Shown here piece after piece: positions 32,340-47,535 of a stretch of DNA of 64,000 bases; position 1 is the first letter of the stretch, and every line of letters starts with the position of its first letter. The position numbers and the translations under genes were made by a program. The DNA is from Zoogloea oleivorans. GTDB lineage: Bacteria; Pseudomonadota; Gammaproteobacteria; Burkholderiales; Rhodocyclaceae. The stretch spans positions 1 to 64,000 of the forward strand of contig JAOAUC010000027.1 of the NCBI GenBank assembly GCA_030157785.1. The letters are read 5' to 3'. The notes under the pieces were generated by a model that was not told the DNA's origin, did no database searches, and saw nothing but the letters and a program-made list of their open reading frames with translations.

Positions 32340-33206
32340 ATGAACATCCCACGCACTTACCGGGCAGTCCTCGCGACGGCCCTGTGCCTTTTCGCAAACC
32401 TGTCCTGGCAGGCCTCGCGGGATGCATCTCTCGACGCGCACCGGCGCACCGGTGCCATCCGGGTCGGCTACGCGGTCGAGGCACCCTATGCCTTTCTGGC
32501 CCCCGACGGGCAGGTCACCGGCGAATCCCCCGAAATCGCCCGCCAGATCATCTCCCGCCTGGGCATTCCGCGCATCGAATGGCGGGTCGCCGAGTTCTCC
32601 GAGCTCATCGCCGAACTGGAAGACGGCCATATCGACGTGATCGCCGCCGGCATGTTCATCACCGCCGAACGCGCCCGCCGGGTGAGTTTCTCGGAACCCA
32701 CCTTTCACGTCCGGCAAGGTCTGCTAGTCGCCACCGGCAACCCTTACCACCTGCATGCCTACAGCGACGCGCCGGGGCTGGACAAGGTGCGCATCGCGGT
32801 GCTTTCCGGCAGCATCGAAGAAGACCTGCTGACTCGCGCGGGTGTCAGCGAACGCCAGTTGCTGCGGGTTCCCGACGCCCGGACCGGCCGCATGGCACTT
32901 GAATCGGGCGAGGCCCAGGGCCTCGCCCTGTCGCGCCCCACCCTCCGCTGGCTGGCTGCCGGAGACAGGCGCGGCAGAACGGTCCTGGCCGAGCCCTTCA
33001 CCCAGCCAGCAGGCAATCTGCCCCTGCAGCCCGGCTACGGCGCCTTCGCCTTCCGACGCGGCGACACCCAGCTTCTCTCCGCCTGGAACGCCGCCCAAGC
33101 CGATTTCATCAATACACCTGCCCACCTCGCCCTGATTGCGCGCTTTGGTTTCACCGCGGACGAAATGCCGGGCACGATCAGCACGGCCACGGTGCTCACA
33201 CAATGA
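32340..33206 (+). CDS. Periplasmic solute-binding protein, amino-acid type (SBP_bac_3)
   Basis: A 288-aa exported binding protein. An N-terminal signal sequence (YRAVLATALCLFANLSWQAS) is followed by the family fold: IRVGYAVEAPYAFLAPDGQV, GESPEIARQII, then DVIAAGMFITAERARRVSFS. No ABC permease or ATPase is nearby. Instead its stop overlaps the start of a sensor kinase (ATGA), so it more likely serves as the periplasmic sensing partner of that kinase than as a transporter subunit (inference). The gene has no evident terminator between it and the nif operon 102 bases upstream, but also no coupling to it. Confidence 0.88.
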   Translation: MNIPRTYRAVLATALCLFANLSWQASRDASLDAHRRTGAIRVGYAVEAPYAFLAPDGQVTGESPEIARQIISRLGIPRIEWRVAEFSELIAELEDGHIDVIAAGMFITAERARRVSFSEPTFHVRQGLLVATGNPYHLHAYSDAPGLDKVRIAVLSGSIEEDLLTRAGVSERQLLRVPDARTGRMALESGEAQGLALSRPTLRWLAAGDRRGRTVLAEPFTQPAGNLPLQPGYGAFAFRRGDTQLLSAWNAAQADFINTPAHLALIARFGFTADEMPGTISTATVLTQ

Positions 33207-35436
33207 AGACCCGCCCGTCCCCTCCCCTCATCAACAGACCCTACCTGTTGCTCGGACTGGCAATGGGCCTTGCTGCTCTGATAAGCGCCGCCCTGGCCTG
33301 GCTCTACTTCGAGCAGCAACAAACCCTTGAGCAGGCCACCCGGCGCCTCGAATCCGTCCGCCAGGTCCGCATCGAACTGGCCAAGGGCTTTCTTTACGCC
33401 AGCCTCGGCAGGGAAGCCGGGGATTCGCCCTTTCACCGCGACCAGGGCTTTGCCCTGCTGCGCCAGGCAAGCACCTCCCTCGACACCACCCTGAGCGAAA
33501 TCGGTGATACCGGCGCAGCGCAGGCCGGCGAATTCCACCGTAGCGCCGAACGCTTCGAAACGCTTCTCGCCACGTGGAAACAACAGGAATCAAGGCAGGA
33601 AGTAGACCTGATGGTCGCCTACCACAACCTGGAACAACAGGCAGTCCGCGCCGACACCCTGATCCGGCAACAGGCCCACAGCCTCTCCGAAAGCCTCCGC
33701 AGCCGTTTCCAGCTGGCCTCGGCGGCCGCCATCGCGCTCCTCGCCGCCATCATCACGGTGGTGTTCTTCTCGCTGCGCGCACGCCGGCGAGCGGAACTCA
33801 AGGAGGAAACCCTGCGGGCCCGCCACGCCCGGGTCATCGAAGGCTCCGACCAGGGTTTCTGGGACTGGAACCTCGAAACGCGCCGCTTCGACGTCACGCC
33901 CCGCTTCGAATCCATGCTGGGTTTTGCGCCGGGTGAACGGGACCTGAGCGAAGAAAACTGGTCCCGTTACGTCCATCCCGACGACCTGCCGCCCAACATG
34001 CAGTCCATCGAAGCCCACTTGAATGGGCTCAACCCCCACCACGAAGCCGAAATCCGCTGCATCACCAAGTCCGGCGAATGGCGCTGGATCCACTCCCGCG
34101 GCAAGGTCGTCGAACGCGACGCAAAAGGCCGGCCGCTGATCATGTCCGGCACCCACACCGACATCACCGACTACAAGAACCTCGTCGAAGAACTGGACCG
34201 GCATCGCAACCATCTTGAAGAACGGGTCGCGCAGCGCACCAGCCAGATAGAGGAACTCAACCGCCAGCTTGAACGACGCAGTGCCCAGGCCGAAGCCGCC
34301 ACCCGGGCCAAGAGCATCTTCCTGGCCAACATGAGCCACGAGATCCGCACTCCGATGAACGCCATCATCGGCCTGACCCGCATCATGCAGCGGGAGGCAA
34401 GCAGCCCGCGGCAGGGCGAGCTCCTCGACAAGACCGGCAAGGCTGCCACTCACCTGCTGGCCATCATCAACGACATCCTGGACCTCTCGAAAGTCGAGGC
34501 CGGCAAGCTGGACATCGAGCAGATCGATTTTCGCCTCGACGAGCTGCTCGAATCGGTGGGTAGCCAGATCGGCGAAAAGCTCCGCGCCAAGGGTCTGGAT
34601 TACCGGGTCACGACGGACGCCGTGCCCCAGAGGCTCGTCGGCGACATGACCCGCCTGACCCAGATGCTGCTCAACTACCTCAGCAACGCGATCAAGTTCA
34701 CCGAGCACGGCGTCATCACCCTCAGCCTGCACGCTACGCAGAAGAAGGAAAGCGGACTGCTCCTGCGTGTCGAAGTCAGCGATACCGGCATCGGCCTGTC
34801 CGCCGAGCAGCAGGCAAGACTGTTCACCGCCTTCGAGCAGGCCGACGGCTCCACCACGCGCAAATACGGGGCACCGGGCTCGGCCTCGCCATCAACCAGC
34901 ACCTGGCCCGCCTGATGGGCGGCGAGACAGGCGTGATCAGCAAACCAGGGGCGGGCAGCACGTTCTGGTTCACCGCCCGCCTGGGTCTGAGCCAGCGCGA
35001 CAACAACGCAGCTGGGGTGAGCCCATTGGCCGCGCTGGACCACATCCGCCAGCGCTACCCCGGCGCCCGCACCCTCCTTGCCGAGGACGAACAGGTAAAC
35101 CAGCTTGTCGCCACCGAAATGCTCAGAGACGCCGGCTTGACGGTGGATCTGGCCGACAACGGCCAGCAGGCGCTCGAACTCGCCGGCCGCCAGCCCTATG
35201 CGCTGATCCTCATGGACATGCAGATGCCGCTGATGGACGGTCTGGCCGCGGCGCGGGCAATCCGTCAGTTACCCGGGCATGCCGGCACCCCGATCGTGGC
35301 CCTGACGGCCAACGCCTTCAGTGAAGATCGCCAGCGCTGCCTTGATGCCGGCATGGACGACTTTCTCTCCAAGCCCGTCGATCCGGATCTGCTCTACGCC
35401 ATGCTGCTGAAATGGCTGGACCGAGCCGCGGACTGA
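33203..35436 (+). pseudogene. Hybrid sensor histidine kinase interrupted by a 1-base frameshift
   Basis: Two frames together encode one hybrid kinase. Frame 1 (33203 to about 34870): TM1 (about 11-33), a helical periplasmic domain, TM2 (about 170-195), PAS (about 205-320), a coiled coil, HisKA with phospho-His 379 in [12 protein letters not shown], and most of the HATPase domain to [12 protein letters not shown]. There the G-box should read GGTGLGLAI, but a G is missing in the run 34868-34871 (GGGG). The frame shifts and ends with unrelated residues at 34915. The correct frame resumes as [17 protein letters not shown] and runs through a receiver domain ([21 protein letters not shown]) to 35436. 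Restored length is about 744 aa. A true mutation or a sequencing error in the G run are both possible. If real, the product lacks the G2 ATP-lid and the receiver. Confidence 0.85.
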
Positions 35437-43183: not shown

Positions 43184-45227
43184 TCAAACCTGGCCTACAT
43201 GAAAAAGAACCACCCGGTCACACCCGCTTCGCTTGGCTTCGTACATGGCCCGGTCGGCGTACACAAGCAGACTGGCATCGTCCGTGCAATGGTCCGGGTA
43301 GAGCGCAATGCCAATGCTCGACGACACGTCCAGGCGCAGGCTACCGACCTCGAAAGGCTGGCGAAGGGCATGGAGAATCTTCTCGGCCACGCGCAGCGCA
43401 TCGTCGGCGGAATCAACCGCCGGCAGCAGTACGACGAACTCGTCGCCCCCGAAGCGCCCCACGGTATCCGACTCCCGCACGCAGGCACGCATGCGCTGCG
43501 CTGCCTCCTTGAGCAGCAGGTCGCCGACCGCATGACCATGGGTGTCATTGACCGGCTTGAAGCGATCGAGATCGATGTACAGCAAAGCCACCCGGTTCTG
43601 GTTACGACGGGACGCCATCAAGGCCTGGCGCAGGCGATCGCTGACCAGGGACCGGTTGGGCAGATCGGTCAGGATGTCGTGCTCGGCCATGTAGGCGATA
43701 CGTTCCTGACTGGCCCGGCGTTCGCTGATGTCACGGGTCACCCCATGCAGCTCGACGTGCCCGCTGCGCGGGTTGCGGCTATAGGTGGTGACCACTTCGG
43801 TCCACACACTGCTTCCGTCCTTGCAGGGCTGCTCGAATACCTCGGTGTAAAAGCGCGGCGCAGCCCCCGGATCGTCCAGGCAGGCCCTGGCCCGCAGGCG
43901 GATCAGGCTCCTCACGCTCTCCACATCCTGCGGCTTGATGGCGGCATCCAGGGGGGCGGCCATCACCTCCTCGGGGGTGTAGCCACGCAGGCGTGCAATC
44001 GACGGGCTCACGTAAAGGTAGCGCAGGGTCTCCGTGTCGAGGGTCCACACCACGTCTTTCATGGTCTCGGTAAGCACCCGGTACTTTTCTTCGCTGGCCT
44101 GCAACTCCTCGGCAGCCGCGCGGGTTTCGGCGGCACTCCGGTGCAGCCGGCGGTTGATGCGGTGGATATAGGCCGCCACCCCCACCACGATGCCAATGAC
44201 CGCCAGTGCCCACCCCAGATAGATGCGCAATCCATCGAGGTCTGCACGCGCGTCGGGGGCATACAGGAACCCCTTGAACTCGAAATCCCGCGGCAACATG
44301 CCCAGGTCGGCGTAGGTATCGGCAATATGCCGCCAGCGCCCGGGGCTCATGTAGCCGATCTCGACCAGGTCCGGGCGGATCAGGGGCCGCATCTCACGGG
44401 CTTCAAAGAGATAAAAATCGAGGGGATGGGCCGCCGAGTAGCGGTCGTGAATCAGGGCCGCAATCTCCTCCGGGTGATCCATGGCGTACTGCCAGCCCCG
44501 CAGGCTCGCCTCGCGAAAGGCACGCACCCGTTCGGGCTGGGCCTTCAGCAAGGACTGGGAGGTGAACAGGTTGTCGCCATAAAAATCGATCCCCGCCGAG
44601 CGGGGCGTGAACATCAGGTAATCCTGCCCAACCCTGTCCAGATAAAAAGGCTCGTTGGACGAATAGGCCGAAATGGCATCGACCGCTCCGTCGATCAGGT
44701 CCTGCAGCTTGAAGCTGTGCTCCAGCCGGGTGAATTGCTCAGGAGAAATCCGCTCCCGCCGGAGGTAGGCCACCAGCTCGTCACCCCCGGTCTCGATCAT
44801 CACGCGCTTGCCGACCAGATCGTGAATCGACTGGGTCGCCGAATCGCGACGGGCGACGGGCGACCAGCACCAGGGGCGAATGCTGGAAGATCGCGGCCAC
44901 CACCACCACCGGCTGCCCGGCCTTCCTGGCCATCAGCAGACCGCTGGTCCCGACACCGAAATCCGCCTTTCCCGACAGCACCTGCCCCACCACATCCAGG
45001 CCCGGACTGGCTTCCTTGAGATGCACGTCAAGGCCGGCATCCCGGTAGAACCCCTTCTCGACGGCAGCGTAATAGCCGGCGAACTGAAAGCCGTGACTCC
45101 ACTTGAGCTGCAGCGTAATCGGCGTCTGGGCCTGCAGGGACAACGAAAAAAAGATGAGCAGACACCCGGTCAGGCATTTTGCCAGCGGGCCAAAAACAGC
45201 AATCGTGATCCGGCGGATCAAAGGCAT
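43184..45227 (-). pseudogene. NMT1-like sensor / PAS / GGDEF protein broken by a 7-bp tandem duplication
   Basis: Two frames encode one membrane diguanylate cyclase. The N-terminal frame starts at 45227 (signal sequence, then LQLKWSHGFQFAGYYAAVEK of an NMT1/THI5-type periplasmic binding domain) and runs to VLVARR. There the heptamer CGGGCGA (plus strand) occurs twice in a row (44850-44856 and 44857-44863). Removing one copy restores the frame: VARR-DSATQSIHDLVGKRV-MIETGG. The second frame holds the rest of the binding domain, a TM helix (about 44245-44165), PAS and GGDEF (RFGGDEFVVLL, with DLDRFKPVNDTHG). As it stands the first product ends soon after the repeat. The C-terminal part could only be made from an internal start and would lack the signal sequence. 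Confidence 0.88.
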
Positions 45228-45384: not shown

Positions 45385-47535
45385 ATGCAGCCCCGCTTCA
45401 CCCCGACCCCTCTGTACGCAGCGCTGGCTGCGGCCCTCACCGCCACCTACGCCCCCGCCTACGCCGCCGACCAGGCCTCGTCGCTGACCCTCAATCCGGT
45501 GGTCGTCACCGGCAGCCGCGCCGAAGCCGCCAGCTTCGACATGCCGGCCGCCATTGACGTCCTCGACCGGGAACAGATCACCGCCGGCCAGCCCCGCGTG
45601 AATGCCTCCGAGGCGCTGATCGCCGTACCCGGCGTAGTGGCCAACAACCGCCAGAACTACGCCCAGGATCTGCAGATATCCACCCGCGGCTTCGGTGCCC
45701 GCTCGGCTTTCGGCGTGCGCGGCGTCAAACTCATCGCCGACGGTATCCCGGCCAGCATGGCCGATGGCCAGGGTCAGGCCGCCACCTTCAACCTCGATGT
45801 GGCCGAGCGCATGGAAGTGCTGCGCGGCCCCTACTCGGCCATCTACGGCAACCACGCCGGTGGCGTGATCCAGCTTTTCACCCGCGAACCCGAAGCCCGC
45901 CCCAGCGTTGAAGGCGGCTTTGCTGCCGGCAGCTACGGCACGACCAAGGCCGACGTGACAGCCCAGGGCAAGATGGAAGGCCTCGGCTACGTGCTCAACG
46001 CCTCGCGCTTCAGCACAGACGGCTACCGCGACCACAGTGCCGCCACCCGCGAGCAGGCCTTCGCCAAGATCACCGGCAAGCCCGACGAGGACAGTAAACT
46101 GACCTTCACGGTCAACGGCCTGTGGCAGCACAACACGCAGGACCCGCTGGGCCTGACGCTGGCCAGCTACCAGAAAAACCCGCGCGGCGTCGATCCGGGG
46201 CCGATCTCGAATTACCCGGCACTGGCCTACAACACCCGCAAGAGCATCGACCACCTGCAAGGCGGCGTGGCCTACGAGCGGAAGTTCGGCAGTGACCTGC
46301 TGCAGGTCTCGGCCTACGCCGGCCAGCGCAGCGTGATTCAGTACCAGGCGATTCCCAGAAATACCCAGTTGCTGCCCGCCAACCCGCAAAACTCCGGCGG
46401 CATCATTGATTTCGACCGCAACTTCTATGGTCTTGGCGCCCGCTACATCGCCGTACGCGAGGCCGCTGGCGGCAAGCTCACTACCACCGTCGGTATCGAT
46501 TACGACAGCAGCACCGACCGGCGCAATGGCTACGAGAACTACATCGGCACCAAGCTTGGCGTGAAGGGCGCGCTGCGCCGCAAGGAGACCGACACGGTAG
46601 AAAGCCTCGACCCCTACGTGCAGGGGGAATGGGCACGGGGCGACTGGGCACTGACTGCCGGCCTGCGCCACAGCCAGGTCAAGTTCAAGGTAGACGACCA
46701 GTACGCTGTCGGCGCCAACGGCGACGACAGCGGCAGCCGCAATTACAACAAGACCACCCCCATTCTCGGCGTGGTCTACAAGCTCAATCCGGCCGTCAAT
46801 CTGTACGCCAGCGCCGCCAAGGGCTTCGAGACGCCGACCCTCAACGAGATGTTCTATTCAGGCGCCGGCGGCAGCTTCAACTTCGGCCTCGCCCCGGCCA
46901 AGAGCCGCCACTACGAAGTCGGCGCCAAGGCCTTCATCGGCAACAGCAGCCGCCTCAACCTGGCGTTCTTCCAGATCACCACCGACGATGAACTGGTCGT
47001 CGATTCAGCCACCGGCGGCCGCACCAGCTACAAGAACGCCGGCAAGACCCTCCGCCAGGGCGTCGAACTCTCCTTCGACACCGCCTGGCGTCGCGATCTC
47101 ACCAGCCGTCTGGCGGTGTCGCACCTTCGCGCCATCTACGACGAGAGCTTCACCACCGGCAGCGGCGCCAGCCTCAAGACGGTCGATGGCGGCAATGCGA
47201 TCCCCGGGGTGCCCCGCACCACCGTCTTCGGCGATCTGGCCTGGAAGCTCATGCCCGGTCTGACCACTGCCGTCGAAGGCATCTATCGCAGCAAGGTCTA
47301 CGTGGAAGACGGCAATACCGCCACCCCCGCCCAGTCCTACGCCCTCGCCAACCTGCGCGTAACCGCCGAGCAGCGCGTCGGCCCGTGGCGCTTCAGCGAG
47401 TTTGCCCGCATCGACAATCTTTTCGACCGCCAGTACGTCGGCTCAGTAGTCGTTGGCGATACGAGCAGCCGCTACTACGAACCTGCCCCCGGCCGTAACG
47501 GCATGGTCGGGGTGAACGCCCGCTACACCTGGTAA
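45385..47535 (+). CDS. TonB-dependent outer-membrane receptor
   Basis: A 716-aa outer-membrane receptor. The signal peptide ends near AYAADQ (about residue 28) and the TonB box region is LNPVVVTGSRAEA. The plug domain includes VLDREQITAG, IAVPGVVANNRQNYAQDLQI and RMEVLRGPYSAIYGNHAGGV. A 22-strand barrel follows, ending in the typical C-terminal aromatic residue (NARYTW). Similarity is to siderophore or metal-chelate receptors, but the substrate cannot be told. No Fur box is convincing upstream. GGAGACAGG lies before the ATG. Confidence 0.94.
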   Translation: MQPRFTPTPLYAALAAALTATYAPAYAADQASSLTLNPVVVTGSRAEAASFDMPAAIDVLDREQITAGQPRVNASEALIAVPGVVANNRQNYAQDLQISTRGFGARSAFGVRGVKLIADGIPASMADGQGQAATFNLDVAERMEVLRGPYSAIYGNHAGGVIQLFTREPEARPSVEGGFAAGSYGTTKADVTAQGKMEGLGYVLNASRFSTDGYRDHSAATREQAFAKITGKPDEDSKLTFTVNGLWQHNTQDPLGLTLASYQKNPRGVDPGPISNYPALAYNTRKSIDHLQGGVAYERKFGSDLLQVSAYAGQRSVIQYQAIPRNTQLLPANPQNSGGIIDFDRNFYGLGARYIAVREAAGGKLTTTVGIDYDSSTDRRNGYENYIGTKLGVKGALRRKETDTVESLDPYVQGEWARGDWALTAGLRHSQVKFKVDDQYAVGANGDDSGSRNYNKTTPILGVVYKLNPAVNLYASAAKGFETPTLNEMFYSGAGGSFNFGLAPAKSRHYEVGAKAFIGNSSRLNLAFFQITTDDELVVDSATGGRTSYKNAGKTLRQGVELSFDTAWRRDLTSRLAVSHLRAIYDESFTTGSGASLKTVDGGNAIPGVPRTTVFGDLAWKLMPGLTTAVEGIYRSKVYVEDGNTATPAQSYALANLRVTAEQRVGPWRFSEFARIDNLFDRQYVGSVVVGDTSSRYYEPAPGRNGMVGVNARYTW

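Follow-up and report, generated by a model that had tools for sequence, protein, structure and literature searches.

A Zoogloea genome has apparently undergone a recent, one-off tandem duplication of 7 bases that inactivates one sensory diguanylate cyclase gene and would be revertible in principle, a reading that sequence comparison favours with a probability of about 0.72. The event is real and recent but ordinary in kind: a frameshift affecting a single member of a large set of GGDEF genes, with a switch conceivable but unsupported. The genome (4.69 Mb, 87 contigs, 87% complete) is probably a metagenome bin, to judge from its contig number and completeness, and the window, meaning the whole stretch of DNA analysed, comprises bases 1-64000 of its contig C27. 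The genome belongs to Zoogloea, a genus of floc-forming, wastewater-type bacteria; the named relatives possessing the same gene are all Zoogloea, and the nearest is Zoogloea oleivorans.

The split sensor gene and its heptamer array

The gene, on the minus strand, is predicted to encode an NMT1/THI5-like-PAS-GGDEF membrane sensor that would act as a diguanylate cyclase (c-di-GMP), and open reading frames and Pfam matches divide it into two pieces. The N-terminal piece (44781..45227) begins at ATG 45227 with what resembles by eye a signal peptide, continues through the first half of the NMT1/THI5-like domain (44826..45089, profile positions 2-90, 70.3 bits against a cut-off of 20.5), and ends with about 25 out-of-frame residues and a stop codon at 44781-44783. 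The C-terminal piece (43184..44803), in a frame that is open from 44932 and has its first start codon at GTG 44803, comprises 539 aa: the second half of NMT1 (44465..44773, profile positions 109-215 of 216, 77.5 bits), a hydrophobic segment (by eye), a PAS domain (43727..44089, residues 239-359 of the piece, PAS_3, 31.5 bits against 25.6) and a GGDEF domain (43220..43687, 163.9 bits against 23.8), the translation of which includes the GGDEF motif and, upstream of it, an RxxD sequence (RESD) that is presumably the inhibitory site. The frame split falls within the Pfam NMT1 sensor domain. In the Z. oleivorans ortholog NMT1, PAS and GGDEF are all found within one protein, and with every domain above its Pfam cut-off in the pieces, the NMT1-PAS-GGDEF make-up given in the original prediction holds. 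With the PAS-GGDEF piece as query, the genome gives 57 matching places at E≤0.001, this gene included; thus, losing one GGDEF gene may cost the cell little.

The break coincides with a perfect tandem array of period 7 (44846..44864, not assigned to a strand; 2.7 copies, 19 bases, 100% match), which reads GCGACGGGCGACGGGCGAC on the plus strand and consists of GCGA (44846-44849), CGGGCGA (44850-44856) and CGGGCGA (44857-44863), followed by one further base. The original prediction had placed a directly repeated CGGGCGA after a partial GCGA at 44846-44863, and both units and position are as it described, except that the array extends one base beyond the end assigned to it. The extra 7 bases are the sole net frame-changing difference from the Z. 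oleivorans gene. Since 7 leaves a remainder of 1 on division by 3 and precisely these 7 bases are missing from the relatives, deletion of one unit restores the frame arithmetically; the claim that the duplication breaks a gene that is otherwise continuous is therefore sound.

The length of the array is rare by chance. Order-2 Markov copies of the sequence (60 replicates) lead one to expect 0.017 period-7 arrays of at least 19 bases per 64-kb window, and 0.2 arrays this long per window for any period from 4 to 12 except multiples of three. In the whole genome the 19-mer has a single occurrence. Contig C27 (193,117 bases) contains 13 perfect arrays with periods of 4-12 and at least 17 bases, among which this one is the longest with a unit that is not a multiple of three, and three arrays of 9-base units are equal to it in length. 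The heptamer array is thus unusual, as expected of a recent duplication, yet it belongs to no heptamer-repeat family, because heptamer arrays with at least two copies are not enriched on C27 (19, this one included, versus 16.9 expected in 40 simulations).

A precursor with a single unit would have contained two GTCGC words 7 bases apart, both still visible in the array, and one slip of the replicating strand between these words would have created the second unit. Translation from the normal start would then yield about 123 correct residues and an out-of-frame tail ending inside the periplasmic NMT1/THI5-like ligand-binding domain, so that in a product truncated in this way the sensor would be left without PAS or GGDEF output. 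If the same slippage removed one unit, it could reverse the mutation at a low rate, which is physically plausible by analogy with icaC and lacI (discussed below), but nothing points to an evolved switch. The rarity of a 19-base, 2.7-copy heptamer (0.017 per 64 kb) is itself a point against a one-off event, as is the fact that such an array favours slippage more than most sequence does.

The array site in other Zoogloea and the age of the break

A 401-base query spanning the array site was compared with 23 Zoogloea genomes including its own, one genome per species; 19 of the 23 matched and four did not, and 15 genomes besides its own gave a long alignable match, the remaining matches being short or in other genes. 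The extra 7 bases are absent from all 15 alignable orthologs, each of which has a single open frame through the site. Twelve are exactly 7 bases shorter over the array columns, and three (L009, L012 and L015) lack the 7 bases and have a separate in-frame 9-base extra in the same loop, which comes after strand 84-89 in the structure predicted for the Z. oleivorans domain (mean pLDDT 79.8); the 9-base extras show that the loop tolerates changes of length that keep the frame. The precursor word GTCGCCCGTCGC, with the direct repeat of 5 bases that makes slippage likelier, is found in 0/15 alignable orthologs, and around the site the 15 orthologs have period-7 match runs of at most 4 bases, versus a longest run of 12 in the window. 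The predisposing sequence is thus not conserved, which counts against a maintained switch. Programmed ribosomal frameshifting was rejected on the grounds that the frame is continuous in 15/15 alignable orthologs.

Other changes of architecture are found among these genes. In one Zoogloea genome (G013), the ortholog (L037 2794-4329, 512 aa) has a signal-peptide-like start and intact PAS and GGDEF domains with no detectable NMT1, as if most of the sensor domain had been deleted in frame. In L009, L012, L013 and L015 a shorter version proceeds directly from the NMT1 part to GGDEF, the absence of PAS being indicated by domain search in L009 and by a BLAST gap in L012, L013 and L015.

The break is evidently recent, because the gene differs from its nearest relative in no other way that alters the net frame; a pair of one-base gaps near 44741/44746 in the alignment with Z. 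oleivorans is self-cancelling and was taken as an alignment effect. Calculated with 8 of the 15 orthologs and with the codons from the array to GTG 44803 omitted (their frame being disputed), dN/dS versus Z. oleivorans is 0.156 for the C-terminal piece (539 codons) and 0.318 for the N-terminal piece (121 codons), and the corresponding values for Z. oleivorans versus seven other relatives are 0.185-0.283 and 0.261-0.639. Derived synonymous and nonsynonymous codons number 20:22 on the window branch versus 23:14 on the Z. oleivorans branch, which leans toward decay on the window branch without being significant (P=0.26); in a further set they number 4:3 versus 4:7 (P=0.63). A long-dead pseudogene was rejected, since there is no second net frame change and codon constraint remains. 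The gene thus has the features of a recent pseudogene or indel mutant, namely a singleton frameshift, intact orthologs and little further decay. In excerpts of the GeneTack survey, singleton frameshift genes that both BLASTp and Pfam confirm are attributed to sequencing error or indel mutation (PMC3711429).

A second frame break is present in the window 10 kb away, in a gene for a hybrid histidine kinase (PAS, HisKA, HATPase_c and receiver domains; 33203-35436, plus strand) that is read in two frames with the junction near 34867 inside HATPase_c. The Z. oleivorans kinase is a single open frame of 748 codons, with a net difference of 1 base over the aligned stretch, which could mean either a mutation or a sequence error. 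When 29 long open reading frames were matched to Z. oleivorans, 13 came out as split and the other 16 as single, two of the latter being partial; the kinase and GGDEF genes were kept, and most of the 13 were dropped for having the base composition of antisense or upstream open frames or for being tandem paralogs. A codon-usage scan of C27 listed 63 same-strand neighbour pairs, three of them with no start codon at the junction, of which the one at 140367 was rejected as a frameshift because an ordinary ferredoxin gene is followed there by another gene. Together the kinase and GGDEF breaks could mean decay of signalling genes or errors of sequence.

Alternative readings of the second unit

Several known systems, compared here from excerpts of their reports, resemble the window gene in part. 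In icaC of Staphylococcus aureus, a biofilm-related gene, gain of one unit in a low-copy coding repeat likewise shifts the frame and silences the gene, which is restored on unit loss; the 4-bp repeat of few copies toggles reversibly, reversion occurs about once per 45,000 divisions and has been observed to be RecA-independent, and several strains have 4, 5 or 6 units (PMC4117637), whereas the window offers one genome, a unit of 7 and relatives without the array. The three CTGG units of lacI, an indel hotspot in Pseudomonas putida, are similarly a run of two or three short units within a gene, one of which is gained or lost through polymerase slippage, and are claimed as a mutation hotspot and not as an evolved switch, but the unit is 4 bases long, in three copies within a reporter, and rates were measured under selection (PMC3485313). 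The heptamers of Haemophilus influenzae hmw1a/hmw2a share the seven-base unit and slipped-strand variation, but have 13-38 copies, in promoters and across strains, unlike an array in codons (PMC2651432); H. influenzae strain Rd has 126 two-copy and 0 three-copy heptamers, and more than two copies is the candidate threshold (PMC2651432). PdcB of Clostridioides difficile is a c-di-GMP enzyme with genetically switched expression, but it is a phosphodiesterase with an invertible promoter (PMC9286219) and not a gene with a repeat in its coding region. The Vibrio cholerae diguanylate cyclase CdgH also joins a periplasmic binding-protein fold to GGDEF output, but through two amino-acid-binding PBPb domains (PMC5431781) instead of one NMT1/THI5-like domain and a PAS domain. 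Among the papers listed, literature on Zoogloea diguanylate cyclases or flocs, microhomology duplications, NMT1 with GGDEF and short-repeat reversion yielded nothing directly on this gene.

The original prediction had called the array a simple reversible switch, and a phase-variable gene, in which slipped-strand gain or loss of a unit toggles the NMT1-PAS-GGDEF enzyme as a population bet-hedge on c-di-GMP output, would agree with a perfect array of 2.7 copies, a unit whose length is no multiple of three, a reading frame that is otherwise intact and the few-copy precedents of icaC and lacI. It has a coding-region tandem repeat whose unit change alters the frame, as slipped-strand genes do, but its repeat is not conserved with a variable copy number among relatives (0/15 alignable Zoogloea orthologs) and a copy number above the heptamer threshold, having two full copies and five bases where the excerpted H. 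influenzae study requires more than two copies (PMC2651432). With the array private to this genome, missing from 15/15 alignable relatives, and heptamer arrays at background on C27, we find the switch unsupported and regard it as quite improbable. It had been stated beforehand that relatives uniformly with one unit, together with an absence of mixed alleles in deep sequencing, would indicate a one-off mutation; the half concerning relatives is what the genomes exhibit, in that the 15 alignable orthologs have neither a second unit nor such an array. A true switch would mean slipped-strand variation within the GGDEF gene of a bacterium that forms flocs, and no such case was found in excerpts of the top-ranked papers, which is a weak negative. 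A wider proposal, that an active low-copy reversible switch silences a THI5-like sensor (thiamin- or PQQ-type ligand) or uncouples it from c-di-GMP synthesis in Zoogloea flocs and that the genus repeatedly discards the sensor (in frame in G013, by a frame break here), is also quite improbable. The lesson is that a repeated unit seen in a single genome does not amount to a switch before variation appears among relatives or in reads.

An artefact, in which the second unit arose in the reads or the assembly and the true genome has one, is unlikely, even with the draft state of the genome (87 contigs, 87% complete), the net 1-base difference in the kinase 10 kb away, and the fact that these two genes are the only start-less junctions left after inspection of the 63 listed pairs on the 193-kb contig, since two frame breaks are few for 193 kb. 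No sequencer usually errs by adding a clean 7-base duplication, nor is this a typical homopolymer error, which counts further against an artefact. Alternatively, the C-terminal piece might still be made, if ribosomes stopping at 44781 restarted at GTG 44803 or ATG 44800 and so produced a PAS-GGDEF protein with no coupling to the ligand sensor. The overlap of stop and start by 23 bases is compatible with such a restart, and the G013 ortholog, which has the same TonB neighbour, provides a sensor-less version within the genus, but that ortholog retains an in-frame signal-peptide-like start, whereas here no Shine-Dalgarno-like sequence precedes the internal start, and the piece is without a signal peptide although its first ~190 residues are normally periplasmic (by eye), making its correct insertion doubtful; there is thus little probability of a functional restart. 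A single slippage duplication in a formerly intact gene remains the preferred explanation.

Possible ligand and TonB-dependent neighbour

By both profile and fold, the sensor domain is nearest to 4nmy, a C. difficile binding protein with bound thiamin, followed by Thi5 and then a formyl-pyrimidine-binding protein (3ix1), and the PQQ-binding protein PqqT (9b1u) is at rank 27 in the fold list. No riboswitch or other RNA element was found at Rfam gathering scores in the whole window. Divergently oriented from the sensor gene is a gene for a PqqU-like TonB-dependent receptor (45385..47535, plus strand; 625 bits, where the PqqU equivalog cut-off is 1200). We would guess that the ligand is of the thiamin or PQQ type, and that the sensor and its TonB neighbour may form a pair for sensing PQQ or thiamin. 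A TonB receptor is located beside the sensor gene in 9 of the 16 loci examined (L002-L005, L010, L011, L014, L016 and L024), the adjacency not being seen in the other seven (L006-L009, L012, L013 and L015).
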